From positions 2,976,001 through 3,040,000 of the forward strand of contig NZ_CP064703.1 in the NCBI RefSeq assembly GCF_023101085.1: a stretch of DNA of 64,000 nt, in the 5' to 3' direction. This document shows, piece by piece, positions 34,305 to 51,532 of the stretch. The notes below the pieces were generated by a model, which ran no database searches, was not told the origin of the DNA, and saw only the letters and a list, made by a program, of their open reading frames with translations. This DNA is from Bradyrhizobium sp. 170. GTDB taxonomy: Bacteria > Pseudomonadota > Alphaproteobacteria > Rhizobiales > Xanthobacteraceae. Position numbers and translations under genes: made by a program. Position 1 is the stretch's first letter; each line of letters begins with the position of its first letter.

Positions 34305-34340
34305 AAACCCAACCTGTGCTGTCTAAAAGGGGAGCTATCG

Positions 34341-35570: not shown

Positions 35571-35584
35571 TCCCTGCGCGAGAA

Positions 35585-35624
35585 GGATGCGGGACGGCTT
35601 AAGCGTGACGGCCGCCCCGCATCC
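35585..35624 (+). other. Intercistronic hairpin between fmdA and fmdB
   Basis: GGATGCGGG (35585-35593) pairs perfectly with CCCGCATCC (35616-35624), extended by CGGC/GCCG after a one-base bulge. It sits 15 bases after the fmdA stop, without a T-run, and probably affects message stability or read-through. Confidence 0.6.
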
Positions 35625-35662
35625 AACGTCGTGATCATCCAACCATCGCGCGAGAAAACCAG

Positions 35663-36004
35663 ATGCCCGTCTACGAATATCTCTGCAACGATTGCGGCCC
35701 GTTCACGGACATGCGGCCGATGGCCGAATGCGACGATCCGCAGGACTGCCCGCAATGCGAGAACGTTTCGCCGCGTGTGATCCTGACCGCGCCGGCGTTC
35801 TTCTGCATGCCGTCGGACAAGCGGAAAGCGCACGCCACCAATGAGCGTAGCGCCAACGCGCCGAAGACGCTCGGTGAATACAAGGCCTCACACGGCCCCG
35901 GCTGCGGCTGCTGTTCGAGCCAGAAGCCGGCGCGCCTAGTGACGAAGACAAAGAGCGGCGCCAAGGGCTTTCCGACCGCACGTCCATGGATGATCAGCCA
36001 CTGA
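35663..36004 (+). CDS. fmdB: FmdB family zinc-ribbon protein
   Basis: A 113-residue protein with an N-terminal FmdB zinc ribbon: CNDC at about residues 9-12 and CPQC near 33-36, within PVYEYLCNDCGPFTD. The C-terminal part has a second Cys group (GPGCGCCSSQKP) and a basic tail. FmdB was named as a putative regulator in the Methylophilus formamidase cluster, and its function is still unclear. It lies between fmdA and amiE in the same orientation. Confidence 0.9.
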   Translation: MPVYEYLCNDCGPFTDMRPMAECDDPQDCPQCENVSPRVILTAPAFFCMPSDKRKAHATNERSANAPKTLGEYKASHGPGCGCCSSQKPARLVTKTKSGAKGFPTARPWMISH

Positions 36005-36046
36005 GGCGCGATCCTTCAAACTCAAACCAGAACAAGAGGCGATCCA

Positions 36047-37087
36047 ATGCTCCACGGTGACATTTCCTCCAGCAAAGACGCGGTCGGCGTCGCAGTCGTC
36101 AACTACAAAATGCCGCGCCTGCACACCAGGGCCGAGGTGCTCGACAATGCCCGCAAGATCGCCGACATGGTGGTGGGCATGAAGACGGGATTGCCGGGCA
36201 TGGATCTCGTGATCTTCCCGGAATACTCCACCCACGGCATCATGTACGACTCCAAGGAGATGTACGAGACTGCCTCGCAGATCCCGGGCGCCGAGACGGA
36301 AATCTTCGCCGAAGCCTGCCGCAAGGCCAAAGTGTGGGGCGTGTTCTCGCTCACCGGCGAGCGCCACGAGGAGCATCCGCACAAGGCGCCGTACAACACC
36401 CTGATCCTGATGAACGACCAGGGCATGATCGTCCAGAAATACCGCAAGATCATGCCATGGGTGCCGATCGAAGGCTGGTATCCCGGCAACTGCACCTATG
36501 TGTCCGATGGCCCGAAGGGTCTGAAGGTGAGCCTGATCATTTGCGACGACGGCAATTTTCCGGAAATCTGGCGCGACTGCGCCATGAAGGGCGCCGAGCT
36601 GATCGTGCGCTGCCAGGGTTACATGTATCCGGCCAAGGAACAGCAGATCCTGATTTCCAAGGCGATGGCCTGGGCCAATAATGTCTATGTCGCGGTCGCC
36701 AATGCCGCCGGTTTTGATGGCGTCTATTCCTATTTCGGCCACTCCGCGATCATCGGCTTCGACGGCCGCACGCTGGGCGAGACCGGCGAGGAGGAGTACG
36801 GCATCCAGTACGCCGGACTGTCGAAGAGCCTGATCCGCGATGCGCGCCGCAACGGCCAGTCGCAGAACCATCTCTTCAAGCTGCTGCATCGCGGCTATAC
36901 CGGCATGATCAATTCCGGTGAGGGCGCGAAGGGCGTCGCGTCCTGCCCCTATGATTTCTACAAGAAATGGATCGACGATCCGGAAGGCACACGCGAAATG
37001 GTCGAGGCGATGACCCGCCCGACGGTTGGGACCGACGAGTGCCCGATCGACGGCATCCCGAATGAGCTGACGGGAAGCAATTACTAG
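36047..37087 (+). CDS. amiE: Aliphatic amidase
   Basis: A 346-residue nitrilase-superfamily amidase. The catalytic triad is visible at the canonical numbers: Glu59 (IFPEYS), Lys134 (QKYRKIMPW) and Cys166 (LIICDDGN). Length and sequence ([22 protein letters not shown] block, [20 protein letters not shown]) match AmiE rather than the shorter formamidase AmiF. It hydrolyses short amides such as acetamide or propionamide to the acid and ammonia in the cytosol. AGAGG precedes the ATG. It ends the urt-fmd-ami operon. Its TAG stop is shared with the end of an IS element: TA is the target and G is the first base of the IS. Removal of the IS would still leave TAG, so the protein is unchanged. Confidence 0.93.
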
Positions 37088-37177: not shown

Positions 37178-37528
37178 ATGGGAAAACCCTATTCGAACGA
37201 CCTTCGTGAGCGGGTGGTGAAGGCTGTCATCAAAGGCGGCCTGTCGAGGCATCAGGCGGCCGCCCAATTTGGGGTGGGCATCAGCACGGCGATCAACTGG
37301 GTACAGCGCTTCCACGAGACCGGCAGCGTCAAGCCGGACCAGATCGGCGGCTATAGGCCAAAGAAGATTGCGGGGCCGCACCGCGAATGGCTGATGCAAC
37401 GGTGCCGGAAGGATTTTACCGTGCGCGGGCTGGTGGCCGAACTCGCTGTGCGTGGGCTCAAGGTCGATTACCGCACGATGTGGGAGTTCCTCCACGCTGA
37501 GAAGCTCAGTTACAAAAAAAGACGCTGA
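37178..37528 (+). CDS. IS630 transposase, N-terminal frame (OrfA)
   Basis: A 116-residue first frame. It has the helix-turn-helix region of IS630 transposases ([20 protein letters not shown], then a second HTH-like [19 protein letters not shown]). It ends just after a run of seven A (37514-37520). A -1 slip on this run joins it to the catalytic frame downstream, which is the known expression mode of many IS630 elements. On its own it would be a DNA-binding protein. Confidence 0.85.
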
Positions 37529-37569
37529 TTGCCGCCGAGCAGGATCGTCCCGATGTTGCCCGTCGGCGG

Positions 37570-38121
37570 ATGCAGTGGACCAAGTATCAGAATCGGATCG
37601 ATCCCACTCGGCTGGTGTTCATCGACGAGACCTGGACCAAAACCAATATGGCGCCGCTACGGGGCTGGGCGCCGCGTGGTCAACGTCTCAAAGCCAAGGT
37701 GCCGCACGGCCGCTGGCACACCATGACCTTCATGGCCGCTTTGCGCCACGATCGCATCACCGCTCCCTGGTTCATCGAGGGGCCAATCAACGGCGAAGCC
37801 TTCCTTCTCTACATCGAGAAGGTTTTGGTTCCGACCCTGCGGCCCGGCGACATCGTGGTCATGGACAATCTTGGCTCGCACAAGGCCCGCGCCGTGCGTC
37901 GCGCCATCCGTGCCGCCGGCGCAAGACTCTTCTACCTGCCGAAATACTCGCCAGATCTCAACCCAATCGAGCAGTTCTTTGCCAAGTTCAAACACTGGCT
38001 GCGCAAAGCCGCGCAGCGAACCACCGAGGCCGTCTACGATGCTATCGCTCCAATCCTCGACACCGTATCACCGGCCGAATGCGCCAATTACTTCGCCAAC
38101 GCCGGTTATGACCAAACCTAG
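37570..38121 (+). CDS. IS630 transposase, catalytic frame (OrfB)
   Basis: A 183-residue second frame, -1 relative to OrfA and open back to the A7 run. The DDE triad is visible: Asp in [12 protein letters not shown], Asp in [11 protein letters not shown] and Glu in [17 protein letters not shown], with the spacing of the IS630/Tc1 class. It probably has no independent start and is made as a fusion with OrfA by frameshifting. Confidence 0.87.
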
Positions 38122-38523: not shown

Positions 38524-39399
38524 CTAGTGAGGTATGGACGACCTGACCGCCATGGATGAATCCGCGGGATCCAGTTCGACCGCGCCGTCCGAGCAGACGT
38601 GCGCCCCGGCGATCGCGACTTGTGTCCGGTTGCTTACGCCCAGCTTGCGCATGATTTCGCGGACATGGACTTTCACGGTCGTTTCGGTCATGCCGAGCTT
38701 GCGACCGATCACCTTGTTGGGGTCGCCTTGGCACAGGCAAACGAGAACGGCGTACTGCCGCTCGGTAAACTCGGGCGCGTGCCGCGCGCCGTTGAAGCCG
38801 TGGTCGCGCGGCACGCCAGCCGCCTTGTCGTCGAATGGGGAGCCCTGCTGCTCGTAAAGCCCGTCCTCCGGCCTGAGAGGTGGCGCCTGCGTCTGTTGTT
38901 CAGGCCCCGGAAGCAGTTGCTCCTGGGGAAGGTCGGGCTGTTTGTATTCGATGGGCGCCGGCGCGCTGAAGGTCTGGCTGGCCAGGAAGGCGGTTGGTGG
39001 AAAATAAGTGCCGCCATGAAGGACGAACGAAAGGGCCTGCAACGCGAGCTCGGGCGCCATGGAATTGCTGAAATAACCCTGGGCGCCGCAACGGATTGCA
39101 GCGAGAACGGTGGCGGGATTTTCATCGTCGGAGACGATGGCGAGCGCCGCGTCACGGCGAAGCGTATGCAACACTTGGATCTCGGTGAAGACCTCGTGGG
39201 GAGAGGGAGCGCCGACGCTGTAGATCAGCATGTCGCATACGGCGCGCTCGACGAGTCTTGTGTGGGCGTCGTCAGGGTCGAGCGAAACCAGTTCGACGCT
39301 TTCGTTCCGGGCCCACGGATTTAAAAAGCTCTCTGCGCGAGCTCGTCTGAAGGCCATCGCGTCTACAAGGAAAACCGTCTTCTTAAATGGGACTGACAT
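38524..39399 (-). CDS. LuxR-type regulator with degenerate receiver domain
   Basis: A 291-residue NarL/FixJ-like protein. The N-terminal receiver fold (residues about 7-125) lacks the key residues: the acidic pair is reduced to one Asp (FLVDAMAF), the phospho-acceptor position is Ser61 (CDMLIYSVG), and the Lys loop reads GAQGYFSNSM. Phosphorylation is therefore unlikely. A Gln/Pro-rich linker (about 145-205) leads to an intact LuxR HTH at about 211-263 (FTERQYAVLVCLCQGDPN, TETTVKVHVREIMRKLGV). It points away from the secretion gene cluster that starts about 1.2 kb further on, with an AT-rich region between, and could be its regulator, in the manner of CsgD-type factors. That is inference. Confidence 0.85.
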   Translation of the reverse strand: MSVPFKKTVFLVDAMAFRRARAESFLNPWARNESVELVSLDPDDAHTRLVERAVCDMLIYSVGAPSPHEVFTEIQVLHTLRRDAALAIVSDDENPATVLAAIRCGAQGYFSNSMAPELALQALSFVLHGGTYFPPTAFLASQTFSAPAPIEYKQPDLPQEQLLPGPEQQTQAPPLRPEDGLYEQQGSPFDDKAAGVPRDHGFNGARHAPEFTERQYAVLVCLCQGDPNKVIGRKLGMTETTVKVHVREIMRKLGVSNRTQVAIAGAHVCSDGAVELDPADSSMAVRSSIPH

Positions 39400-39426
39400 A
39401 ACGCGCCCCTTACATTACGTCGTATA

Positions 39427-39457
39427 ACTATCGACAACTACATTCTATGACTATCGA
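39427..39457. promoter_or_regulatory. Direct repeats upstream of the LuxR-type gene
   Basis: ACTATCGA occurs at 39427-39434 and 39450-39457, 23 bases apart (about two helical turns). The second is part of the palindrome CTATCGATAG (39451-39460). They lie in AT-rich DNA 28 bases before the regulator start and may be regulator sites. Confidence 0.4.
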
Positions 39458-39514
39458 TAGATTGCCTCGGGCCCTTCTAGGTCGCTGTGAAACACATCAC
39501 TTAGCATCTTAATT

Positions 39515-39724
39515 GTGCATAAAAGTTTACTCTTGTTCCAAGCGATTGCCAAGAACCGCGAGTGTGACAAGAAATCGTCCAAAACGGGGGAACTGCAGCA
39601 AGATCATAGCCAGAAGGTGGTATTTTTTGAATATAACGGTTGCATAGATGCCAACACCCAACCTCTGCTAAATATATCTTTCGATATGTACGTCCTTGGC
39701 GACGAAGTCGGTACGCTCAAATGA
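39515..39724 (+). CDS. Possible small protein, unrecognised
   Basis: A 69-codon frame from GTG in an AT-rich stretch. The product is MHKSLLLFQAIAKNRECD and onward, ending MYVLGDEVGTLK, with no recognised motif. No convincing ribosome site precedes it, and base composition is unlike neighbouring genes. It could be non-coding leader or promoter DNA for the genes to the right. Listed because it fills most of a 360-base gap. Confidence 0.2.
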   Translation: MHKSLLLFQAIAKNRECDKKSSKTGELQQDHSQKVVFFEYNGCIDANTQPLLNISFDMYVLGDEVGTLK

Positions 39725-39761
39725 GTGAATATCGCCGGCCTGCATCTGCGGACCCATCGCC

Positions 39762-40349
39762 ATGTTTGTCAGCAAGTTGCCTCCAAAACCGGACTTCGAC
39801 CAACTAGCTGCTGCGGCTCCCGCATCGGCAGACCGCCGCACATTCGTTCAGGCCCTGATGGGAAACCTGATCTGCAGCTGGTCGAACAATGAAAGCCTTT
39901 TCATCTACGTGCTCATGATTCTTCTGCGCACCGACGAGGCTTCCGCCGCCGTCGTGTTCGCGACACTGAACACGACCCGCGCGAGACTCGATCTGATCCA
40001 GCGACTGGCCAAGATCAGGGTTTCCGACAAGGCTCTGTCGAAAAATCTGGCTGCTCTCATCGAACGCTTCTCGGAGTCCACCAAGGTTCGCAATGAACTG
40101 AATCATTGCATGTTCATCTTCGATTCCACTGGCGCCATCACCCACACCCAGTCGATGCGATTGGTGGAAACAAGGTCGAGCCTGAAGTTCGGAGAGATAA
40201 AGGCGCTGGACGAAAACCGTCTGCAGGAGATGCTGCGGACGACCCACGAAATGGCGAAAATCAACCGCGAGATCTGGGATCTGCTGCCGCGCCTTGAAGC
40301 GCATGTCTGCGGCGCGCAGCCACACAGCGTGCCCCGCGATGCGGCTTGA
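39762..40349 (+). CDS. Conserved-looking hypothetical protein with RNELNH motif
   Basis: A 195-residue, mostly helical soluble protein of unrecognised family. The segment SESTKVRNELNHCMFIF (near residue 110) contains RNELNH, which fits the Rx4H pattern of HEPN domains, and the helices on either side (ARLDLIQRLAKIRVSDKALS and the Met/Glu-rich C-terminal helix) would suit that fold. One motif is weak evidence. There is no signal peptide. It precedes the repeat-protein/type I secretion cluster on the same strand and could be regulatory. The start has only a poor ribosome site. Confidence 0.6.
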   Translation: MFVSKLPPKPDFDQLAAAAPASADRRTFVQALMGNLICSWSNNESLFIYVLMILLRTDEASAAVVFATLNTTRARLDLIQRLAKIRVSDKALSKNLAALIERFSESTKVRNELNHCMFIFDSTGAITHTQSMRLVETRSSLKFGEIKALDENRLQEMLRTTHEMAKINREIWDLLPRLEAHVCGAQPHSVPRDAA

Positions 40350-40642
40350 GGCAGGCCGGCGATGAGGGACGGTCACGCCTCCAGTTCAATCAACGCCTGA
40401 CTCTTTCCAAGCGCCAACTGCAATCGATGGTTGATATCGCAAGATACAGCGATGCATCTAATGCGTGCATGTTGTTGGCGAAGATGTGTCGGCAAACTGA
40501 CAATGCTGACACCCGCAATAAGGCGAGGTGCCGGCAGTCGGAAGACCCGACATTGAAGAGCACCGCCGCGCTTCGAAGACCGCAGACTTAGAAGATCAGC
40601 GATCTCGTTCCGTCCGCGATGCTCCAATCGCAGGAGCTCGTC

Positions 40643-41458
40643 ATGAGTAAGCCACAGAAGAAGTACGTCCCCAAGAACAATCAGGACCAGGACCAGGATC
40701 AGGACCAGAAGCAAGACCAGTTGCAGGCGCAGGCCAATCTCCAGGCTCAGCTCCAGGGTCAGGGGCAAGGCCAGGGTCAGGGTCAATTGCAGTTTGCCGT
40801 GCAGTCGCTGGATTCCAAGAGCGAGAACGAGAACGACAACGACAATGACAACAAGAACGAGAATGAGAACAAGAACGAGAATACCGTCGACAACAAGCTC
40901 GACAACAAGGTAGATAACGATCTCGACAACGACGTTGACAATACTGTCGACAACAAGATCGACAACAACATCGAAAACAAGATCGAAAACACCGTCGAGA
41001 CCAAGGTAGACGTTGATGTCGATGTGGATGTCGATGTGGACACAAGCGGCCTGAGCACCCCGGTAATCGCTCTCTACGACTTCGACACGCACGGTTCTGT
41101 CGTCATGCCTGACGTCGTGACCCAGACGATGAACGACGGCAACCAGTTCAATATTGATCAGGTCAACAACCTGGTCGATAACGACACCAACAGCTCGTAT
41201 GCCACCTACTATGGCGGCAACGGTGGATCGTGGTGTGAGCCGGGTGCCAGCTTCAGCATGGACGCCAAGATCGAGGGCGGGACGTCCAGGATCGACGCCG
41301 GCGATATTGGCGATCGTGCAAACGTTTCGTCCAGTGCCGATGCAGTTCTCAACCAGTCTGCCTTCGATCAGAACATCACGCAGGGTGCGAACATCCAGTT
41401 CAACAGCATCACCATTCAGGCTGCTGGTGACAATCTGACTGATAACGACATAGGGTAG
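40643..41458 (+). CDS. Low-complexity Gln/Asp/Asn repeat protein, candidate secreted substrate
   Basis: A 271-residue protein of no recognised family. Residues about 12-55 are Gln-rich with QD, QA and GQ dipeptides. Residues about 60-80 are (E/D)N dipeptides. About 81-124 is a tetrapeptide repeat of the form x-(V/I/L)-(D/E)-N, around ten units (TVDN, KLDN, KVDN, DLDN). A VD dipeptide run follows to about 133. The C-terminal 135 residues are ordered-looking and carry QVNNLVDNDTNSS, a motif also present in the next protein. No signal peptide is present, as expected for a type I substrate; RTX nonapeptides are absent. AGGAGC precedes the ATG at 40643. A strong terminator follows. The transporter genes lie just downstream, so export is likely by inference. 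Confidence 0.75.
   Translation: MSKPQKKYVPKNNQDQDQDQDQKQDQLQAQANLQAQLQGQGQGQGQGQLQFAVQSLDSKSENENDNDNDNKNENENKNENTVDNKLDNKVDNDLDNDVDNTVDNKIDNNIENKIENTVETKVDVDVDVDVDVDTSGLSTPVIALYDFDTHGSVVMPDVVTQTMNDGNQFNIDQVNNLVDNDTNSSYATYYGGNGGSWCEPGASFSMDAKIEGGTSRIDAGDIGDRANVSSSADAVLNQSAFDQNITQGANIQFNSITIQAAGDNLTDNDIG
40885..41007 (+). repeat. Twelve-base-period tandem repeat encoding x(V/I/L)DN units
   Basis: About ten imperfect 12-base units (for example GTCGACAACAAG, CTCGACAACAAG, ATCGACAACAAC) encode the tetrapeptide array of the repeat protein. A 6-base GATGTC/GATGTG array follows at about 41012-41043. The units differ mainly in first and third codon positions, so the amino acid pattern is held under selection. 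Confidence 0.85.
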
Positions 41459-41472
41459 TTTTTGCGTTCGAT

Positions 41473-41503
41473 CCGCGCGGCGCCAGCCGCGCGGGTCTTT
41501 TTT
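41473..41503 (+). terminator. Rho-independent terminator
   Basis: The perfect 9-base stem CCGCGCGGC/GCCGCGCGG with the loop GCCA is followed by GTCTTTTTT. It lies 15 bases after the repeat-protein stop and separates that gene from the rest of the cluster, which would let the small repeat protein be made in excess. Confidence 0.92.
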
Positions 41504-41595
41504 GCCAGTCAATTCATTTCAGTCGCTGCAGTTGCCGACACGAACTGAGGGCCGTTACCGCGGCTTCAACAGTTTACGGCGACTGGGAGGTTCCC

Positions 41596-43524
41596 ATGGC
41601 GTCAGCGAATTTCGTTGAGATAATTTCCCACTTCGCAGGATATCTGCAGATCTTCCACGATATCGCCCGCGACCGCGTCCAGTATGACGAGAGTCTCGCG
41701 CCGCGTCCGCCCGGCGATTACACCACGCTTCGGCCGAATTACGATTATCGCGTCGTGCCGGATGATATGGAGACGATGGCGGGCCCGGTGCCGGAGCTGA
41801 TGCCGGACGATCCGATCCATTTCGTTCGCGGACGCCCGCTAAAGCTGCTCCGTAGTCCGCAGGACGACGATTCCGATTTCTTTCCGCGTTCGCCGGCGCC
41901 GAGCGTCCCGCTGCCAAAACCGCCGGGTGGCGGTGGCGGAGGCGGTGCCGACCATCACGTCAGGGTGAAGTACCAGGATGGTGGTCCAGAGACCCAACTG
42001 ACGGTTCATCAATACAACTTCATGCATGACGATGACGCCAATCTGCCGGCGAATCTCCTGGTCGCCGTTGAACCTCTGATCACACAACTCAACAGCGATG
42101 CGATGGCCACCATTGAGGAGTTGGCGGCCGATGCGAACGCCGCGATTCCCGTCGACTGGCAGATGCCGCAGAGCGATGGCGGCGCCACGGATTTCCTGAT
42201 CGCTCGCGACGCGGCCTGGGCCGATGGCGGCGGTGCGCCGGATGCGCACTCGGTAACCCCTGGCTACTATGTCAACGGCGAACTGCAGGAACGGCCATCC
42301 GAAACGACGCCGCCGGCCGAGCCGCCGGAATTGCCGGACACCGGAGACGGAATCGGCCAGTGGGCCTCATTGGGCGGCAACTTCAGCATCAACGCGGCGC
42401 TGATCGTCGATATCGGCGAGTCCGCCCGCACCATGGTGGTGATGGGAGATTACTTCAAGACCGATGCCATCTTCCAGACCAACACCATTATGGACGATGA
42501 CGAGGTCCGCGTATCGGGCGGGGACCGCGAGCCAACTTCAACCAGCGATCAGAACGTCGCGACCAACATCGCCGATTTTCTTCAGAACCCCAGCATCTAC
42601 GCCGGCTTCCCGGCCCAGTTTGCCGGCGCGAACTGGATCGTCGATGTGGTCGACGGTGACTTCTACAGCGTTCATGCAGTGGCTCAGGTCAATTATCTCT
42701 CCGACAACGATGTGGCAACGCAGGTCAGCAGCAGTTCCCACTACAACCTCGTCGGAGGTTACAATACCCAGGGCAATCTGGCACAGATCCTTGACGGCAG
42801 CATTGAATACGACCTGATCATCATCAAGGGCAGCTATCACGGCCTGAACGTCATCTTTCAAAACAACATCTTGCTGGACAACGACAAGATCAAGATGGCG
42901 GCCGACGGCGCCGATCCGTCTCAATCCGTGAATTCAGGTGACAACAGCCTGTTGAACGAAGCCGCGGTTGCAAACTATGGCGGCGATACCTTTGACGAAC
43001 TGCCCGCAAACCTCGAGTTGATCGAAAGCCTGCTGGCCGCCGGCTTGACATCACTCGATCCCGAACTGGCCGGCGCCCTCATCGGCCATGGCGGTCCCCT
43101 GAAGGTCCTCTACATCACCGGCGACTATTACGACATCAATGCGATCTGGCAGACCAACATCACCTCCGACGTCGACGTGATGTATCAGCTTCAGAACCAG
43201 CCCTTGGCCGATCTGATGGCGCTTGATACCGACGGCGCGGTGACGCGGTCCGTTACCACCGGAGGCAACGAACTTGCCAATGACGCTGCGATCGTCGACG
43301 TCAACCCTGATGTGACCTACGTCAGGGGCGAGATCTACACCGATTCCATTCTGGTGCAGGCCGATCTGGTGCCGGCGGAGTCCAGTGCCGTCAACGCCAA
43401 TACCAACGCCCTAGTAACCGAACTCATTGCTTTCGTCGATGACCCTCAGGACACGACAAGCCCGCCGCCGGCAGCGATCGTCAATTCGGTGCAGTCAGAC
43501 CCGATGGCGAGCATGTTGCATTAG
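41596..43524 (+). CDS. Large repeat protein, candidate type I secretion substrate
   Basis: A 642-residue protein of unrecognised family. The N-terminal 110 residues are charged and end in a Pro/Gly-rich linker (PLPKPPGGGGGGGADHH). From about 137 to 596 it carries a diverged internal repeat: GDYFKTDAIFQTNTIMDDD (284-302), GDFYSVHAVAQVNYLSDND (354-372), GSYHGLNVIFQNNILLDND (412-430), GDYYDINAIWQTNITSDVD (509-527), a weaker copy at 578-596 and a half copy at 139-147. Spacers contain S-x-x-G-x-N and N-x-A elements. The protein is acidic, nearly Cys-free and lacks a signal peptide, as type I substrates do. The Asp/Asn clusters could bind calcium. GGGAGGT precedes the ATG. The exporter ATPase gene starts 48 bases later. 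Confidence 0.8.
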   Translation: MASANFVEIISHFAGYLQIFHDIARDRVQYDESLAPRPPGDYTTLRPNYDYRVVPDDMETMAGPVPELMPDDPIHFVRGRPLKLLRSPQDDDSDFFPRSPAPSVPLPKPPGGGGGGGADHHVRVKYQDGGPETQLTVHQYNFMHDDDANLPANLLVAVEPLITQLNSDAMATIEELAADANAAIPVDWQMPQSDGGATDFLIARDAAWADGGGAPDAHSVTPGYYVNGELQERPSETTPPAEPPELPDTGDGIGQWASLGGNFSINAALIVDIGESARTMVVMGDYFKTDAIFQTNTIMDDDEVRVSGGDREPTSTSDQNVATNIADFLQNPSIYAGFPAQFAGANWIVDVVDGDFYSVHAVAQVNYLSDNDVATQVSSSSHYNLVGGYNTQGNLAQILDGSIEYDLIIIKGSYHGLNVIFQNNILLDNDKIKMAADGADPSQSVNSGDNSLLNEAAVANYGGDTFDELPANLELIESLLAAGLTSLDPELAGALIGHGGPLKVLYITGDYYDINAIWQTNITSDVDVMYQLQNQPLADLMALDTDGAVTRSVTTGGNELANDAAIVDVNPDVTYVRGEIYTDSILVQADLVPAESSAVNANTNALVTELIAFVDDPQDTTSPPPAAIVNSVQSDPMASMLH

Positions 43525-43572
43525 CGGCGAGGGCAGTTGTTTTGCTTATTGCAGTTGCAGGAGAGTTTTCAA

Positions 43573-45762
43573 ATGTGGGGCTGGGATGATCGTCCAGGCA
43601 GCGCCGGAAGTTGTCGCCTGAGTCAGCATGACGAAGCGACGGCGAGCACGGCGAAGATAATACCGCTTCGCCCGTGGTTTGATCCTCCGCCTTCGCGCGG
43701 CGAAGATCCGGTCGTCAAATTCGCCGACGAGAAGAGTGGCGCGGCCGAAGCCAAGACCGCCGAGCCGCCGTCGGCCGAGCCATACCTGCGGGAGGTGGCC
43801 AAGACTGAGGCCAAGACTGAGGCCAGGACTCAAGCCAGAACTGAAACCAAGCCTGAAGCCAGGATTGAGGCCAAGACGGAAGCCAAGACGCCGCCGGGAT
43901 CCACCGTCGTGATCGAGCAGGCGGTTCCGGCTCCCCCGCTGCGCACCGGAGGTGACAAGGACGGTGGCGGCTCTTCAGGCGGCGGCGGTGGGGGTGGCGG
44001 CGGCGGCGGTAACTCGCCGCCGCTGCATAAGCGTTCCAGCGACAATGAATTCAGGGACGTGCTCGGCAGCGGTCTGGCGAATGCGCGCCGCAACCTGGTG
44101 ACCGTCGGGCTGTTCTCGGTTGCGGTCAACCTGCTGGTGCTCGCCATTCCGATCTACCTGTTCAACATGTCCGATCGCGTGCTGACCAGCCGCAGCACGG
44201 ACACGCTGGTGATGCTGACCATCATCGTGATCGTTGCGATCGCGGCGCATGTGCTGATGGACATGATGCGCCGCATTATCCTGATGCGGGTGGCGGTCGA
44301 GACCGAAGCTAAATTGGGCGGACCGGTGCTGAGCGCCGCCGCCAAATCCGCGCAGAGTGGATCCAGCCGCGAATTCCAGACGCTGGCCGACCTGCAGCAC
44401 CTCCGCGCGTTCATTACCGGTCCGGTATTGCTGACGATGTTCGATACGCCGGTCGCGCCGGTCTATTTCGCCGTCGTGTTCCTGATCCATCCGCATCTCG
44501 GATTCATCGTGCTGGGCTCGGGCGTTGCGCTGGTCATCGTAGCGCTGCTGAACCAGCGCGTCACCGCGATCCCGTTCAACCAGGCCAACAATTACGGCGC
44601 CAGGGCAAACCTGACGGCGGAATCGATGGCCCGCAATGCCCAGGTCATCAATGCGATGGGCATGATTCCGGAAGGCGTCCAGGTATGGGGCCGCGAGACC
44701 GTGGAGTCCCTGAAGGCACAGGTGATCGGACAGGATCGCAATATCCTGATGACGGGATTGTCGAAGTTCCTGCGGCTATGCACCCAGATCGCCATTTTGG
44801 GCTGGGGCGCATGGCTGGCGCTGGAAAGCCAGATCACCGCCGGCATGGTGATTGCGGCCTCGATCGTCGCGAGCCGCGCGTTGGCTCCGCTGGAGGGCAC
44901 CATCGAAGGCTGGCGCAGCTTCGTGCAGGCGCGTTCGGCCTATGCCCGCGTCAGGGCGCTGTTGCTGAACTCGCCGCTCAACCTGGAGCGCCTCCGCCTG
45001 CCGCGTCCCGCAGGATATCTCAATGTCGAGCGCATTCTCTACGTGCCGCCGCCGAACAAGAAGGTGATCCTGAACGGAATCAGCTTTCAATTGAAGCCCG
45101 GGGAATCGCTTGCCATCGTCGGAGACTCCGGCACCGGGAAAACCATGCTGGCTCGCATGCTGGTCGGATCCATCATCCCGACCGCCGGCAGCGTCAGGCT
45201 CGACATGATGGACCTGCGCAACTGGGATCCGCGCCAGTTCGGCGAGAGCGTCGGCTACCTGCCGCAGGACGTGCAACTGTTCCCGGCCACCATCAAGGCC
45301 AACATCGGCCGGATGCGTGACGACGCCCGCGACGAGGACGTGTTTGACGCCGCCGAGACCGCCGACGTGCATGAGATGATCTCCAGCTTTGCCCAGGGCT
45401 ACGAGACCATCGTCGGCATGGACGGCAGTCCGCTGTCGGGCGGCCAGCGGCAGCGGATCGGGTTGGCGCGCGCGTTCTACGGCAACCCGCGCCTGATCGT
45501 GCTCGACGAACCGAATTCGAATCTGGACGCCAATGGCGAGCGGGCGCTCGCCAAGGCGCTGGTGCGCGCCAAGGAGAAACAGATCACGGTGGTGACGATC
45601 ACCCAGCGCGCGGCGCTGCTGATGAGCGTCGACAAGATCATGATCCTGCATCAGGGCGCGGTGCAGGCTTTCGGCAGCCGCGACGAGATCATTCCGATGA
45701 TCACCGGCCGCAAGCCGAACAATATCCCGACCGGGCCGGGCGATCCGCCTTCGTTGAATTGA
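43573..45762 (+). CDS. Type I secretion system permease/ATPase
   Basis: A 729-residue PrtD/HlyB-class ABC exporter. The first about 155 residues are an unusual extension with KTEA-like tetrapeptide repeats (residues about 77-106) and a poly-Gly run (about 137-146). The membrane domain follows (about 175-430: LFSVAVNLLVLAIPIYLFNM, VFLIHPHLGFIVLG). The nucleotide domain then has Walker A GDSGTGKT, signature LSGGQRQRIGLARAF and Walker B LIVLDEPNSNLD. It would energise one-step export across both membranes with the HlyD-type partner encoded next and an outer-membrane TolC-like channel not found here. AGGAGA lies before the ATG at 43573. No C39 peptidase domain is seen, so substrates are not cleaved by it. 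Confidence 0.92.
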   Translation: MWGWDDRPGSAGSCRLSQHDEATASTAKIIPLRPWFDPPPSRGEDPVVKFADEKSGAAEAKTAEPPSAEPYLREVAKTEAKTEARTQARTETKPEARIEAKTEAKTPPGSTVVIEQAVPAPPLRTGGDKDGGGSSGGGGGGGGGGGNSPPLHKRSSDNEFRDVLGSGLANARRNLVTVGLFSVAVNLLVLAIPIYLFNMSDRVLTSRSTDTLVMLTIIVIVAIAAHVLMDMMRRIILMRVAVETEAKLGGPVLSAAAKSAQSGSSREFQTLADLQHLRAFITGPVLLTMFDTPVAPVYFAVVFLIHPHLGFIVLGSGVALVIVALLNQRVTAIPFNQANNYGARANLTAESMARNAQVINAMGMIPEGVQVWGRETVESLKAQVIGQDRNILMTGLSKFLRLCTQIAILGWGAWLALESQITAGMVIAASIVASRALAPLEGTIEGWRSFVQARSAYARVRALLLNSPLNLERLRLPRPAGYLNVERILYVPPPNKKVILNGISFQLKPGESLAIVGDSGTGKTMLARMLVGSIIPTAGSVRLDMMDLRNWDPRQFGESVGYLPQDVQLFPATIKANIGRMRDDARDEDVFDAAETADVHEMISSFAQGYETIVGMDGSPLSGGQRQRIGLARAFYGNPRLIVLDEPNSNLDANGERALAKALVRAKEKQITVVTITQRAALLMSVDKIMILHQGAVQAFGSRDEIIPMITGRKPNNIPTGPGDPPSLN

Positions 45763-45803
45763 TCGAGGACGTCTGCCGGGTTTGACAGCAACGAGGTTAC
45801 GCG

Positions 45804-47183
45804 ATGGCCAACAGGAAAATAGCGGACCGCACCGCGGAATCCGAAGGCACCTGGTACGATTCGCTGCCGCGATCGACCAAGCTGCCAACCGTTGCCGGTG
45901 CGCTGATCATGGCGGTGGTGCTGATGGGCTTCGGCGTCTGGGGCAACATGGCGCCGATTGCCGGCGCCGTGGTCGCCTCGGGCGTGTTCGTCGTTACCGG
46001 ACAGAACAAGATCGTGCAGCATCTCGAAGGCGGCATGATCCGCGAGATCTACGTGCGCGAAGGCGACAAGGTGGAAGCCGGGCAAATGTTGCTCGAGCTT
46101 GACGACACCGCCGCGCGTGCGGAGTTGCAGCGGCTAATTTTGCGCCGCGTCAGGTTGACGGCAATCGATGCAAGACTGCAGGCCGAGATGAGGGAGGAAC
46201 AGGATATCACGCTTCCATCCGACATAGTCAATTGGCTGGCCAATTCGCCTTTGGCTAATTCGCCCGAGGTGAAGGAAATCGTGGACAGCCAGCAGATGAC
46301 GTTTACGGCGCGCCGCAACAATCTCAACAGCGACATCAAGAGCATCCAGGAAAGCATCAACGCGCTGGAGGAGCGAATCCGGGGATCCCGGGTGCAGCTC
46401 GATGCCGTCCACCGTCAGATCGTTCTGCTCGACGAGGAAATCGTGACCAAGGACAAGCTGGTGCAGGCCGGGCTGGTGCGCAAGCCGGAACTGATGGTGC
46501 TGCAGCGGTCGAAGGCCAATCTGGAAGGCGAGGTCGGCCGCATCATGGGCGACATCGGCGATGCCAAGGAACGCATCGCCCGCGCGGTCGAGCAGATCAA
46601 TGGCGTGCGCAAGACCGCGATCAAGACCGCGGTCGAGCAGATGCACGAGATCCGCGGCGAACTGGCTGACGTCCGCGAGCGGATGCTGAGCGCCAAGGGC
46701 ATCCTCGATCGGGTCCGCGTCACAGCGCCGGTGAGCGGCGTGGTGGTGAAGCTCCGCTATCATACGCGGGGTGGCGTGGTCGAAGCCGGCAAGAACATCA
46801 TGGAGCTTCTGCCGCTGAAGGACGAACTGATCATCGAGGCGCGATTGCGGCCGCAGGACATCGACAGCGTCAAGCACGGACAGACGGCGATGGTGCGGCT
46901 GACGGCGCTGAACCAGCGCATCACGCCGATGGTCACCGGCGACGTTATCTATCTGTCGGCCGACACGCTGGCGGATGAAAAGAAGTCCCAGCAGGTGGGA
47001 CCGACCGACATCTATATCGTGCGCGTCAAGCTCAACAGCGAGGAGAGCAGGAACGTGCCGAATTTCAACCCGACGCCCGGGATGCCGGCCGAGGTCTACA
47101 TCAAGACGGCGGAACGGACGTTCTTCCAATACATCGTCAGACCGATTCACGACAGCATGATGCGCGCATTCCGGGAGCGCTAG
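45804..47183 (+). CDS. HlyD family type I secretion periplasmic adaptor
   Basis: A 459-residue membrane-fusion protein. One N-terminal span (about residues 32-54, [20 protein letters not shown]) is followed by a lipoyl half ([22 protein letters not shown]), a long coiled coil (about 110-300) and the C-terminal half ([20 protein letters not shown], then [20 protein letters not shown]). This is the PrtE/HlyD type that links the ABC exporter to a TolC-like channel. GAGGT lies before the ATG. It follows the exporter gene by 41 bases and precedes the CelD-like gene by about 40. Confidence 0.92.
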
Positions 47184-47223
47184 CCACAGAACGAGCACCT
47201 TGAACATTGGAAAGGCGTCCGCC

Positions 47224-48786
47224 GTGCATATCGACATCATCGAAACCCTGCCGTCGCTGGCCAAGCTCGAGGACAACTGGAACGCCGTCTACGACGCGGA
47301 CGACGAAGCGCAGATATTCCTGTCGTGGCAATGGCTCAACGGCTGGCTGTCCTACATCCATGGGCCGTGGTTCATCCTGGCTGCAAAAGCCGGCGAGTCC
47401 GCCGACCTGCCTTATGTTGCGTTCCTTCCCTTGCGGCTGCAGACCACGATCGAGAAATCCGACGTCATCAGCGACATGAGGATGGCCGGCAATTTCGCCG
47501 CCGACTACACCGGCATCATTTGCAGACCCGAGGCGGAGAACAAGGTCATTCCAGCCTTTGCCCGCTGCATCAGGCAGATGAATTGGGCGCGGCTCAATCT
47601 TGAAAATGTGCGGATGTCGGAGCGGCGCGTGCGGTTGCTTCTGGCCTGCTTTCCGAAAGCCAATTTCAGCTATACGGAGGTCGGCAGGGTCAACAAGGTC
47701 GACGGTATCGATAACAGTCTCTGTCCGTATCTCACGCTACCCAAGGACTGGAATGGCTATCTGGAATCGCTGAGCGCCAATACCAGGCAGAAAATCCGGC
47801 GCCTCCTGAAGCAGGTCGATACGCCCGGCGAATATCGAATAACCGTTTCAACGCCCGAGACGTTCGCGCAGGACCTCAAGACCTTGCTGGGATTCTGGGA
47901 GACGAAGTGGCGCCCTCGCAAGGGTGACAGGATCGATAGCCTGGTCCACTCGAACGGCGCCATGCTGACGCGCAGTTTTCAATCCGGCATGCTGTACCTG
48001 CCGACTTTCTGGCATCGTGACCGGCCTGTCGCGGCGCTGGCCACGCTGGTGGATCCGCGCAAGCGGGCGTTCTCGTTCTACATGACCGGACGTGACGAGA
48101 CGTTCGACGGGCCGCCGCCGGGAGTGATCCTGCACGCCTTCAGCATCCGCCACGCGATCGCGAACGGGTTTTCCGAATACGACTTCCTGCGCGGAAACGA
48201 GCCGTACAAATATTCGTTCGGCTGCGCGGAGCGCAAGATCCGCTGCACCGTTCTGGAGACCAGGAACGGCAGGAATCTCGGCGGCGGGCTCGACCCCCGC
48301 AGCATCCCGGACGTCCTGCAACTGGCGACCGAACTGCACCGGAAGGGGCAGGCGGCCGACGCCGAAGTCGGCTACCGGCGGATCCTGGAGGTTCAGCCGA
48401 AGCACGCCGACGCGTTGCACCGGCTCGGCCAGCTGCTGGCGGCGAAGGGTGACTTCGCCGCGGCCAAGCGGCAGTTCCGGATCCTGACGACGGTTCGGCC
48501 CGATGCCGCCAAGGCGTGGCAGTGCCTGGGCCAGGTCTGCGAAAGCCTCGGTCAGCACGAGGAAGCATTGCGCCAGCACCTCGAATTCATGCGGCTGCAA
48601 CCGAACCTGCCGGACGGTTTCGTCGCGGTTGGCAGGTGCATGGTCAAGCTCGGACGGATGGCGGAAATCAACGCCGCGCTGCTGGCCGCGATCGAACCGG
48701 CGAGCGCCCCGTCGATCCGGAAGTGGCGCGGTTCGCGGCGCGTGCCGGACCGGCAGACCGCCAGCGAACACTCGGCCTCTGCGTAG
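47224..48786 (+). CDS. CelD-like GNAT acyltransferase fused to TPR repeats
   Basis: A 520-residue protein. Residues about 1-365 form a GNAT/FemAB-like acyltransferase related to CelD/BcsL (IFLSWQWLNGWLSYI, LPKDWNGYLESLSANTRQKI, FYMTGRDETFDGPPPGVILH, GFSEYDFLRGNEPYKYSFG). About 375-480 contains three TPR units (AEVGYRRILEVQPKHADALH and similar). CelD-type enzymes are linked to polysaccharide or surface modification. GTG at 47224 with GGAAAGG eight bases upstream is preferred to a TTG at 47200 without a site. It lies in the same run as the type I exporter genes, so it could modify the exported proteins or an associated glycan. That link is inference. Confidence 0.85.
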   Translation: MHIDIIETLPSLAKLEDNWNAVYDADDEAQIFLSWQWLNGWLSYIHGPWFILAAKAGESADLPYVAFLPLRLQTTIEKSDVISDMRMAGNFAADYTGIICRPEAENKVIPAFARCIRQMNWARLNLENVRMSERRVRLLLACFPKANFSYTEVGRVNKVDGIDNSLCPYLTLPKDWNGYLESLSANTRQKIRRLLKQVDTPGEYRITVSTPETFAQDLKTLLGFWETKWRPRKGDRIDSLVHSNGAMLTRSFQSGMLYLPTFWHRDRPVAALATLVDPRKRAFSFYMTGRDETFDGPPPGVILHAFSIRHAIANGFSEYDFLRGNEPYKYSFGCAERKIRCTVLETRNGRNLGGGLDPRSIPDVLQLATELHRKGQAADAEVGYRRILEVQPKHADALHRLGQLLAAKGDFAAAKRQFRILTTVRPDAAKAWQCLGQVCESLGQHEEALRQHLEFMRLQPNLPDGFVAVGRCMVKLGRMAEINAALLAAIEPASAPSIRKWRGSRRVPDRQTASEHSASA

Positions 48787-49411: not shown

Positions 49412-51532
49412 GTGTTGCCGAGGTGCCGCCTGCTGCAAAGTTCATCCATCCTCATCCCGGGCGACACCGTCTGGAGAAGGTGCAAGGCAGGACGGCTGGC
49501 TATCCTCAATGACGCGGCCGCGTATTTCGCCGCTTTGCGGGAAGCGCTGCTGCTCGCGACGAAGCAGGTCTACATCATCGGCTGGGACATCCACAGCCTG
49601 ACTCGGTTTGTCGGGCCGTCCGGGCATGCCGACGATGGTTATCCGGAAGAGCTCGGCGCGTTTCTGAAAGCGCTCCTGAAGGCGAAGCCCGGGTTGCGGA
49701 TCAACATCCTGAGCTGGAATTTCCCGGCCCTCTATGCGGCGGAGCGGGAGTGGAATTCAGCCGCCAAATTCACCTCGGACGCGTCGGACCGGCTTTGCTT
49801 CTGTTTCGACTCCAGTCTTCCGCTAGGCTCCGCGCAGCATCAGAAGATCGTCGTCATTGACGGAGTGCTTGCGTTCGTCGGCGGCCTCGACCTCACGATA
49901 CGCCGCTGGGACACCAGCGAGCACGACGCCCATCATCCGTTGCGGACCGATCCCGACGGCAAGCCCTATCCGCCGTTTCACGACGTGCAGTGCATGGTGG
50001 ATGGCGAAGCCGCCGTCAGTCTGACGGAAGTGGCGGAGAGCAGGTGGCGGGCCGCCGGCTGCACGGTCGAAACAAGCACCGACGTCACCGGCGAGCGCTG
50101 GCCGGCCTCGGTGCCGGTGCAATCCCGGAGAATGACGGTGGGCATCGCCCGGACCGAGATAGCAACCGCGAGCGAAGCCGGCGTGAACGAGGTCGCACGG
50201 CTGTTCGAGGCCTCCATCAACGCGGCCGACCGCTTCATCTACATCGAGAACCAGTTCACCAGCGCCACCGATATCGCGCGCCTGCTGGCGCAGCGGATGC
50301 TCGATGTGCCACAGCTTCGTGTTTTGATCGTCACGCCGAGGATGCATTCGTCCTGGTTTGAATCGCAGGCCATGCAGAGCGGGCGCGGCGGATTCATCGC
50401 CCAATTCGTGGCGGCGGGCGTCATGGACCAGGTTCGCTTTCTCTATCCATCGATTCGGGATGGGGAGCAGGCCACCGTGGTCATGGTGCACAGCAAGGTG
50501 ATGATCGTCGATGATCGAATTTTGCGGGTGGGCTCGGCCAACCTCAATAACCGCTCGATGGGTGCGGACACCGAGTGCGATCTCGCCTTCGAGGCGACGT
50601 CCGAGGCACACCGGAAATACATCGCCCGGCTTCGCCGCCAACTGATCGGGCATTTCTGCGGCGTCGATGCGCGGGAAATCGCAAGCAACGAAGCCGACCT
50701 GTTCGGATTTCTCGACCGCCTGCCGGAGCGCGGCGGCGCGAAATCGTTGCAGCCGATCGATCCGGCCGCAACAGCCGGCAGCATGGCAACGATGGTGCAG
50801 CCCGTCGCCGATCCCCGAGAACCGCTTCACCTCGACCGCGCCGCCAACCGCATGTGGACGGCAAGAACCATTTTGGCGGTGTTGGGGTTGGCCGCGGCGC
50901 TCGCCGGCCTCGCGCTGGCCTGGCAGTACACATCGTTGCGCGATTTCGCTGATGTCGGCTTCGTCTCTTCGGTCATTTCGCAACCCGCACGGTCGCAATT
51001 CGCGCCGCTGCTCGCAATTGCCGCCTTCGTCGTCGGCGGGCTGGTGGTGTTTCCGGTGCTGGTTTTGATCGCCGCCACGGCAGCGGCGCTGGGGCCGTGG
51101 ATGGGCTTCTTCAGCGCGGGCGCCGGCGTGCTGCTCAGCGCGCTCACGCTGTTTTCGATCGGCCGCGTGCTGGGCCAGGCGCGCCTGCAGCGGCTGCTCG
51201 GGCGTCGCGCGGGGCGAGTTCAGAACCGCATCATCGGCAAGGGAGTCGTTGCGGTCGCCATGATCCGGATGGTGCCGATCGCCCCGTTCTCGATCGTGAA
51301 CGTGGTGGCGGGCGCCAGCAAGCTGAGCCTGCGCGATTTCCTGCTCGGCACCGTGCTGGGCATGGCGCCGGGGATCGCTGTCATGGCCGCGCTCGGCGCG
51401 CAGATCGCAGATCTCGCCAGAAACGCATCGTGGGCGAACGCGGTGCTGCTCGCGCTGGCGATCCTCGCCTGGATCGCGCTGTGCCTCGGCGTGCAGTTCC
51501 TGGTGACGTGGATGGCGGGACGAAGAACGTGA
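49412..51532 (+). CDS. Phospholipase D-like protein fused to a VTT/DedA membrane domain
   Basis: A 706-residue two-part protein. The N-terminal about 470 residues are a PLD-superfamily unit with two HKD motifs, HQKIVVIDGVLAFVGG and HSKVMIVDDRILRVGSANLN, each with His, Lys and Asp. The C-terminal about 230 residues are a VTT (DedA/SNARE-associated) membrane domain (FPVLVLIAATAAALGPWMGF, VPIAPFSIVNVVAGASKLSL). The chemistry is phosphodiester transfer or hydrolysis on phospholipid, as in cardiolipin-synthase-like enzymes, at the inner membrane. The start is uncertain: GTG at 49412 or TTG one codon later, both without a good site. It is coupled by a 4-base overlap to an EEP-family gene, as often seen for such pairs. 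Confidence 0.88.
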   Translation: MLPRCRLLQSSSILIPGDTVWRRCKAGRLAILNDAAAYFAALREALLLATKQVYIIGWDIHSLTRFVGPSGHADDGYPEELGAFLKALLKAKPGLRINILSWNFPALYAAEREWNSAAKFTSDASDRLCFCFDSSLPLGSAQHQKIVVIDGVLAFVGGLDLTIRRWDTSEHDAHHPLRTDPDGKPYPPFHDVQCMVDGEAAVSLTEVAESRWRAAGCTVETSTDVTGERWPASVPVQSRRMTVGIARTEIATASEAGVNEVARLFEASINAADRFIYIENQFTSATDIARLLAQRMLDVPQLRVLIVTPRMHSSWFESQAMQSGRGGFIAQFVAAGVMDQVRFLYPSIRDGEQATVVMVHSKVMIVDDRILRVGSANLNNRSMGADTECDLAFEATSEAHRKYIARLRRQLIGHFCGVDAREIASNEADLFGFLDRLPERGGAKSLQPIDPAATAGSMATMVQPVADPREPLHLDRAANRMWTARTILAVLGLAAALAGLALAWQYTSLRDFADVGFVSSVISQPARSQFAPLLAIAAFVVGGLVVFPVLVLIAATAAALGPWMGFFSAGAGVLLSALTLFSIGRVLGQARLQRLLGRRAGRVQNRIIGKGVVAVAMIRMVPIAPFSIVNVVAGASKLSLRDFLLGTVLGMAPGIAVMAALGAQIADLARNASWANAVLLALAILAWIALCLGVQFLVTWMAGRRT

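Follow-up and report, generated by a model that had tools for sequence, protein, structure and literature searches.

The stretch analysed here, referred to as the window, comprises 64,000 nucleotides of Bradyrhizobium sp. 170 (contig NZ_CP064703.1, positions 2,976,001 to 3,040,000), whose genome consists of one contig of 9.2 Mb. Between positions 38524 and 48786 the window carries what is probably a dedicated type I secretion operon, in which a PrtD-class ATP-binding cassette (ABC) exporter and its HlyD-type adaptor would export two proteins encoded directly upstream, designated A and B. According to this reading, to which a probability of about 0.62 is assigned, A is the bulk subunit of a matrix or adhesin and B is its anchor, nucleator or cross-linker. 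The reading draws on gene order, co-occurrence, a separate exporter lineage, conserved C-termini of both proteins, a motif common to them and a hairpin between their genes. Type I substrates are mostly recognised by their RTX repeats and, consequently, exporters with other cargo go unassigned. With the module described here, an entire exporter lineage of the Hyphomicrobiales and, more rarely, the Rhodobacterales, including soil and plant-associated genera, gains a likely cargo, and three nameless families are tied to one process. The cargo of orphan rhizobial exporters, the recognition of a non-RTX low-complexity protein and the role of a near-obligate small partner become testable.

The locus begins with a LuxR-type regulator on the reverse strand (38524..39399). 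Across a divergent intergenic region (39400..39761), the genes on the forward strand are a gene for a 195-residue protein (39762..40349), A (271 residues; 40643..41458), B (642 residues; 41596..43524), the ABC exporter (43573..45762), the HlyD-family periplasmic adaptor (45804..47183) and a GNAT protein of the CelD-like type with TPRs (47200..48786). Genes B to GNAT-TPR are separated by less than 50 bases, and the gap between A and B measures 137 bases. An earlier inspection of the letters of the window (the sequence-only reading) had proposed such a system, and all the genes that it named are open reading frames at the positions it gave; it overlooked the 195-residue gene, which is the most faithful companion of the set, and the hairpin between A and B. 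Its family assignments are borne out by profile searches. The exporter scores 697.6 bits against TIGR01842 (cut-off 510.15) and the adaptor 374.2 bits against TIGR01843 (cut-off 208.65), and the last gene matches PF13480 (76.8 bits) and TPRs. The preferred start of the exporter is the ATG at 43573, preceded by GGAG, which gives 729 residues; a TTG at 43537 is also possible (frame 43537-45762). In a promoter scan, sigma-70-like promoters were no commoner than in shuffled sequence (three seen, 3.1 expected), and Rfam gave no match in the window at gathering scores.

The association of B with the exporter was followed in 38 loci outside the window, of which 34 come from 33 genomes of a B profile search and four from a single-sequence search. 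In all 38, B, the PrtD-class gene and the HlyD gene follow one another on the same strand; the loci were chosen by the presence of B and the linkage is therefore conditional on B. The profile detects B in 34 of 397 genomes of the order and the single-sequence search in six of 41 close relatives, with the own genome included in both counts. The A profile is found in 22 of the 397 genomes, all of them within the 34 with B (p ~7e-28, relatedness ignored). For most genomes, no more than three candidates were scored with the B profile, so that an absence is not proof. The sequence-only reading had assigned A and B to this exporter, and the wider sample agrees: no B homologue was seen without the exporter in the loci read, and the one A protein found without B and exporter nearby, in Sinorhizobium fredii, belongs to an apparent remnant.

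Plasmids extend this picture. Among 72,556 plasmid records, 32 carry B, and they include records of Ensifer, Sinorhizobium, Sulfitobacter, Paracoccus, Shinella, Rhodobacter and Cereibacter. Eight of the 32 were opened, and the gene order is the same in all eight as far as it is readable: it is kept in the records of Shinella, Cereibacter, Qingshengfaniella, Sinorhizobium meliloti, Ensifer and Paracoccus denitrificans, the Sulfitobacter record ends within the exporter, and in the Rhodobacter record a frameshift joins A to B. The latter, from Rhodobacter sp. CZR27, is annotated as a single frame of 1,517 residues and was considered as an A-B fusion, which was rejected as the end of A is out of frame and the joint looks like a frameshift; the end of the Sulfitobacter A looks out of frame as well. 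An exosortase E gene (xrtE) lies a few kb past the module on the CZR27 plasmid (L114, 16540-17023). In a class-wide sample, B occurs in one of 384 other genomes, which belongs to another order and holds the complete set. Genome, plasmid and class-wide counts together place the module mainly in the Hyphomicrobiales, with some Rhodobacterales and one further order.

The exporters linked to B form a lineage of their own. In a quick tree of 77 PrtD-class ABC domains, the 43 B-linked ones (the window, 36 loci and six plasmid records) fall on one branch with a Shimodaira-Hasegawa-like approximate likelihood ratio support (SH-aLRT) of 100, whereas 31 other PrtD-class domains, four of them from the own genome, lie outside it. 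Branches among the non-B-linked domains are long. The rows left off the tree are 12 repeat fetches of exporters already included, one locus whose exporter is not PrtD-class (L140) and the partial Sulfitobacter exporter. Three rows stand just outside the B-linked branch (L052, L053 and L148). The loci L052 and L053, from the genomes G131 and G312, represent a sister lineage that has the most divergent B and lacks the 195-residue gene; L053 encodes an A-like protein of 1,569 residues with repeats such as LTDNDKYDVSQLN. The third row, L148 (also fetched as L162), is a paralogous PrtD-class exporter of the own genome, which has six such exporters above the cut-off. It lies at about 2.853 Mb (L162, 9952-11796) with an HlyD gene behind it, and the protein encoded upstream has 852 residues and repeats of about 30 residues (VLATVTDTA..LTDD type). 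This protein is perhaps a second non-RTX cargo.

A further trait of the B-linked exporters is an N-terminal extension of low complexity, which in the window contains a poly-Gly stretch before the transmembrane domain (43573..44067). With the first Met in each frame taken as the start, the extension is found in all 38 loci with a length of 26 to 864 residues, and it reaches at least 70 residues in 35. Other PrtD-class frames above the cut-off mostly measure 580-680 residues, compared with 663-1,447 for the B-linked ones of the same genomes.

Protein A of the window is made of 14.8% Asp, 14.0% Asn and 10.3% Gln and has a net charge of -34; an alternative ATG at 40619 would give 279 residues. Its tracts include QDQD/GQGQ, NDNEN/NENDN and a four-residue repeat of the VDNK type. 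The motif QVNNLVDND occurs once, and GANIQFN lies in the conserved C-terminal module. The protein is of low complexity, and its coding DNA has repeats with periods of 6, 12, 18 and 24. As the sequence-only reading had stated, A belongs to no recognised family: there is no Pfam or NCBIfam match at E 0.1, a sequence search against solved structures returned five chance matches (best E 0.1), and 30 A homologues scanned at E 10 give weak scattered matches, most often Menin (5/30, best E 0.19). What recurs is the composition. Asn and Gln together account for 34 residues in a stretch of 80 in the window protein, and at least 30 are reached in 106 of 120 homologues vs 20 of 1,081 background frames, a set in which A frames were kept. 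The background consists of stop-to-stop frames of the fetched loci and includes non-gene frames as well as some A-type frames outside the A set.

In related loci, the slot before B is occupied by a protein rich in Asn, Gln and Asp whose length varies strongly, from 183 residues in Sinorhizobium meliloti to 1,571 and 1,624 residues when taken as stop-to-stop frames; the longest is built of tandem GGNxQxNS modules and QSNxxxDxD copies. A composition filter gathered such A-slot proteins from 32 of the 38 loci. In four of the remaining six (L050, L053, L066 and L081) an A-slot protein was recovered by other searches; L038 holds a piece of A where its contig stops, and in L076 the contig end coincides with the start of B, with A on another contig of that genome.

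Protein B shows the repeat pattern GxNxxxNxAxI ... GDxxxxxAIxQxNxxxDxD, a conserved N-terminal segment and a conserved C-terminal tail, DPMASMLH. It is devoid of Cys, a trait seen in 86 of 120 database homologues and in 19 of 38 loci, with Cys present in the others. No Pfam or NCBIfam family matches B at E 0.1, in agreement with the sequence-only reading, and the search against solved structures returned one chance match (E 1.7). Two overlapping sets of B homologues (29 and 27), scanned at E 10, give weak scattered matches, the commonest being the AC_1 autochaperone (7/29, best E 0.03). The AlphaFold2 model of B has a mean predicted local distance difference test score (pLDDT) of 59.8 and a predicted template modelling score (pTM) of 0.64; it consists mostly of strands at about residues 133-587, with helices at about 153-210. 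Several B homologues bear the UniRef name 'Type I secretion protein' and three Sulfitobacter records that of 'type I secretion protein ATPase'. Since B has no ATPase match, these names look passed on from the neighbouring gene.

Both proteins keep a characteristic C-terminus. The pattern G[AGSLE][NQ]xxxN occurs within the last 60 residues of 29 of the 32 A-slot proteins vs four of 1,011 background frames; it is absent in L045-L047, and the stricter GAN[IVL]xxN is present in 23 of the 32. An Asp-plus-hydrophobic end closes B in 34 of 38 loci and in 119 of 120 database homologues, compared with 39 of 1,081 background frames. The two patterns were formulated after the sequences had been inspected. 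Type I systems read uncleaved C-terminal signals, as described in the available part of one source (PMC3034196). With these conserved ends, the export of A and B can be suggested more firmly than from gene position alone.

The proteins also share an internal motif. Q-x-N-x(2,3)-D-x-[DN] is present in B of 35 of the 38 loci with 120 copies (1.7 in shuffled sequences) and in 19 of the 32 A-slot proteins with 41 copies (7.2 in shuffled sequences); elsewhere 12 copies fall in five of 1,011 frames. Window B contains five motifs of the form Q-x-N-x(2,3)-D-x-D. On the other hand, the canonical RTX nonapeptide (GGxGxDxUx) has no copy in A and none in B, as the sequence-only reading had noted, and no HemolysinCabind domain is among the Pfam matches listed.

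Directly behind A, a GC-rich hairpin of 12 pairs, 10 of them G-C, is followed by TTTTTT (41470..41497, forward strand) and has the form of a terminator or attenuator. The fold of 41467-41500 has an energy of -27.4 kcal/mol. A hairpin of at least nine pairs, seven of them GC, is found in 31 of 32 A-B gaps vs one of 32 equal-length stretches behind B and 15 of 640 shuffled gaps. Under a stricter rule, which adds a T-rich tail, the counts are 16 of 32 vs none of 32 behind B. The conserved hairpin would agree with a role of A as the major exported subunit, with a message that stops short of the exporter genes or is protected ahead of them.

The 195-residue protein, of no known family by profile searches, is a core partner of the module. 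Its gene is present at 34 of the 38 loci and was also searched independently of B, in genomes and plasmid records. Homologues occur in 38 of the 397 genomes (two of these matches, G265 and G388, span a stop codon), and 32 of the 38 are among the 34 genomes with B (p ~1e-38, relatedness ignored); the two B genomes that lack it, G131 and G312, are those of the sister lineage. The reverse case comprises six genomes, with strong matches in G317, where the gene stands alone, and G376, where it is near a contig end, and matches at E 1.3e-7 to 6.5e-4 in G346, G041, G113 and G251; B was searched in these six genomes and found in none. On plasmids, the gene is carried by 33 of the 72,556 records. Every one of the 32 records with B is among them, and there the two genes lie 3.3 to 5.6 kb apart. 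The additional record, from S. fredii CCBAU 25509 (L164), keeps the 195-residue gene and A; no B or exporter is present within the 18 kb read, and the locus looks like a remnant.

The residues Trp40, Asn42, Glu44, most of the TLNTTRAR block (68-75), Asn111 and His115 of the 195-residue protein are invariant. Its RNELNH segment (residues 110-115) has the form R-x4-6-H, the HEPN motif. The RN..NH form is present in 18 of 23 homologues and [RK]N...H in all 23, although such a short motif is weak alone. HEPN_Cthe2314 appears as a weak match in two of the 23 (best E 0.01), and other weak matches are commoner, namely WD40_alt (4/23, best E 0.00043), FliG_M (4/23) and HTH_30 (3/23). A HEPN-like fold is thus a lead and no more. 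The gene adjoins the regulator gene in many loci, and in several the stop-to-stop frames overlap or abut. The protein most likely acts with the regulator, at the RNA or the protein level; an alternative role would be that of a substrate chaperone. In 12 loci, further recurrent frames of about 160-230 residues stand beside the 195-residue gene (e.g., L074, 5618-6157 on the forward strand, and L073, 13677-14261 on the reverse strand); the one member of this family that was scanned has no Pfam family above the cut-off.

The regulator of the window contains a GerE helix-turn-helix domain (58.2 bits) and matches no receiver family in Pfam, consistent with the degenerate receiver-like N-terminus described in the sequence-only reading, which had also noted the divergent orientation. 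Its inclusion in the set holds in part. Related LuxR-type regulators (at least 97 bits, a threshold used in assigning the alternatives by hand) accompany 16 of the 38 loci and are in each case divergent from A-B; five more loci give weak matches (23-50 bits). At 10 other loci a short zinc-ribbon protein is encoded instead, near the 195-residue gene (L036, L037, L043, L072-L075, L077, L079 and L080); it is upstream of A in seven and downstream of HlyD in L037, L079 and L080. The two types never occur together, for which the chance is 0.0014 with 16 and 10 of 38 loci taken as independent, and the five weak-match loci are not among the zinc-ribbon ones. Four of five scanned zinc-ribbon proteins pass the cut-off of PF12760 (Zn_ribbon_IS1595). 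The protein resembles what an IS1595 transposase uses to bind DNA, possibly domesticated and reused as a regulator. The window regulator may work in a CsgD-like manner, although it scores 34 bits against the CsgD equivalog NF007505 (cut-off 250), over the helix-turn-helix part only. The GNAT-TPR protein, which the sequence-only reading had counted as the modifier of the set, has a homologue at 13 of the 38 loci and is an optional accessory rather than a core component.

A likely course of events can be outlined from these data. The LuxR-type regulator or, in other lineages, the IS1595-type zinc-ribbon protein would turn the operon on, perhaps together with the 195-residue partner. Transcription of A would mostly end at the hairpin, or the A message would be protected by it, leading to an excess of A; read-through would then yield smaller amounts of B, exporter, adaptor and GNAT-TPR protein. 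The C-termini of the acidic A and B, which have no evident signal peptides, would be recognised, as linkage and conservation suggest, and both proteins would pass through PrtD-HlyD and a TolC-type channel encoded elsewhere. Outside the cell, the QxNxxxDxD repeats found in both proteins would assemble with the Gln/Asn ladders of A, perhaps with calcium, into a surface layer or matrix that promotes adhesion. In some lineages, the GNAT-TPR protein could modify a component of this matrix.

Several points weigh against the export of both proteins as matrix components. The export of A and B and their matrix role are predictions from sequence. The AlphaFold2 model of A shows disorder only (mean pLDDT 41.3), the model of B is moderately confident, and Foldseek and VIA-align searches with the latter gave nothing significant (best E 1.0, FapC). 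Profile comparison of A and B gave no significant homology (E 0.42, with the shared motif aligned), so that the motif alone is claimed. An outer-membrane factor, which type I clusters often but not always encode, was not seen in the window cluster, and OEP matches were found in three proteins elsewhere in the genome. The hairpin with a T-rich tail is missing in 16 of 32 gaps and, therefore, the hairpin may not act as a terminator at every locus. Many of the loci are closely related to one another (e.g., L045-L047 and L068-L070), so the counts are not independent. The distribution of B is patchy within the genus, where it occurs in four of 24 other genomes by the single-sequence search and in two of 14 by the profile. 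Finally, mutants of the R. leguminosarum orphan exporter genes tobD and toaD had unchanged secretome, biofilm and nodulation, according to the part of the source available (PMC2275737), which is a warning that such systems can stay silent in ordinary culture.

Other explanations of the same locus differ in which protein leaves the cell and in what it does there. One of them is that export concerns only A or only B, while the second protein acts as a helper in the cytosol or periplasm, for instance with B as a scaffold or gate for A. The C-termini of the two proteins do differ (a GANxxxN module vs an Asp-hydrophobic tail) and their profiles are not significantly related; moreover, the hairpin lies between A on one side and B with the exporter genes on the other, which would suit a B produced at about the level of the exporter. 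Nevertheless, B is a large, acidic, predicted beta-rich protein with a conserved C-terminal tail and no evident signal peptide, it is as constant with the exporter as HlyD is (in loci chosen by B), and QxNxxxDxD is common to A and B. The absence of Cys from B carries no weight here, since it is not general among homologues. The export of a single protein is thus judged unlikely. Another alternative, an ordinary PrsDE/PrtDE-type exporter standing by chance beside two unrelated genes, would agree with the PrtD class of the ABC protein and with the presence of six such exporters in the genome; the linkage at 38 of 38 loci and the separate exporter clade make it hardly credible.

If both proteins are exported, they could also build a coat, S-layer-like or calcium-storing, in place of an adhesive matrix. 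The acidic, Asp-rich nature of A and B would suit it, and a PrtD-class exporter also serves the alphaproteobacterial S-layer protein RsaA. An SlpA_D2 match in one of 27 B homologues (E 0.2) is at chance level, and neither an RTX nonapeptide nor an S-layer family match of weight was found. The hypervariability and modelled disorder of A are unlike what a lattice protein would show, the distribution of the system is patchy, and the helix-turn-helix of the regulator resembles those of NarL- and CsgD-type regulators; a coat is therefore regarded as quite improbable. More remote is a role of A and B as secreted antibacterial or host-directed effectors, even though bacteriocins and toxins also leave by type I systems and the hypervariability of A could reflect an arms race. 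The 27 B homologues do yield single matches to FokI_cleav_dom (E 0.027), Subtilosin_A (E 0.068) and Gasdermin (E 0.33), all at chance level, but none recurs in a second member and window B has no match. No toxin, protease, lipase or nuclease family appears in 30 A and 29 further B homologues, and what varies in A is its length, repeat number and low-complexity composition. The export of both A and B as matrix or adhesin components remains the preferred reading.

This preferred reading has its best precedent in BapA of P. denitrificans, an Asp-Ala-repeat protein that leaves the cell through a type I system and is linked to attachment, as the accessible text of the source reports (PMC5588039). 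BapA, an adhesin, resembles A in being very acidic and of low complexity and in having its gene immediately ahead of a dedicated type I system, BapBCD. It differs in its 891 Asp-Ala dipeptides and in an adjacent outer-membrane protein, and that part of the source names no B or 195-residue partner (PMC5588039). A long Asp-Ala dipeptide array is absent from the sequence of window A. In P. denitrificans HAMBI_2443 an A-B-exporter module is found on a 1.73-Mb replicon.

The rhizobial PrsDE system, which exports matrix, glycanase and adhesion proteins according to the portion of PMC2275737 at hand, resembles the present one in having a PrtD-class ABC protein and an HlyD-type adaptor. It differs in that the B-linked exporter belongs to a separate lineage, in a tree without a PrsD row, and is tied to two adjacent non-RTX proteins. 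Closer in status are ToaDE and TobDE of R. leguminosarum, compared by description, which the same part of that source presents as PrtD-type orphan exporters with no known substrates; for TobD it mentions a Bradyrhizobium relative at 52% identity whose gene neighbourhood is similar (PMC2275737). Both may or may not belong with the B-linked clade. For the accessory gene, the available text on HfsK of Caulobacter describes a GNAT-family protein that tunes the cohesion of the holdfast adhesin (PMC5362036); the gene in the window carries TPRs and is optional, and the two are compared at the level of the GNAT superfamily. Full-text searches of an open-access collection brought up no recognisable description of the gene set.

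The two-subunit logic and the divergent LuxR-type regulator also recall amyloid systems. Curli (csgBAC/csgDEFG) and Fap combine a major low-complexity, Gln/Asn-rich subunit with a minor repeat subunit, and a LuxR-type regulator is divergent from the subunit genes. Their subunits travel by Sec plus CsgG or FapF, whereas the export proposed here is by ABC/HlyD. The amyloid likeness of A and B is one of composition, with 34 Asn plus Gln in 80 residues, and of the beta-rich B model; no curlin or Fap family is listed among 30 A homologues and the sets of 29 and 27 B homologues at E 10. A more specific version, in which A is a hypervariable Gln/Asn-ladder fibre, B is a constant beta-repeat nucleator or anchor and the HEPN-like partner controls the abundance of the A message at the hairpin, a curli analogue with a type I exporter that would be widespread in Alphaproteobacteria, is tentative and rather unlikely.

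The surroundings of the locus contain genes of other kinds. Immediately upstream, an IS630-like transposase (37178-38121, forward strand) is divided between two frames, a helix-turn-helix part (37178-37528) and a DDE_3 part (37570-38121). Before it, LivF-type ATPase-, formamidase-, FmdB-like zinc ribbon- and aliphatic amidase-like genes (33615-37087, forward strand) adjoin the locus as an amide-use cluster, by the look of the sequence. On the downstream side, a protein of 706 residues (49412-51532, forward strand) has weak, sub-cut-off matches to cardiolipin synthase and UptA models.

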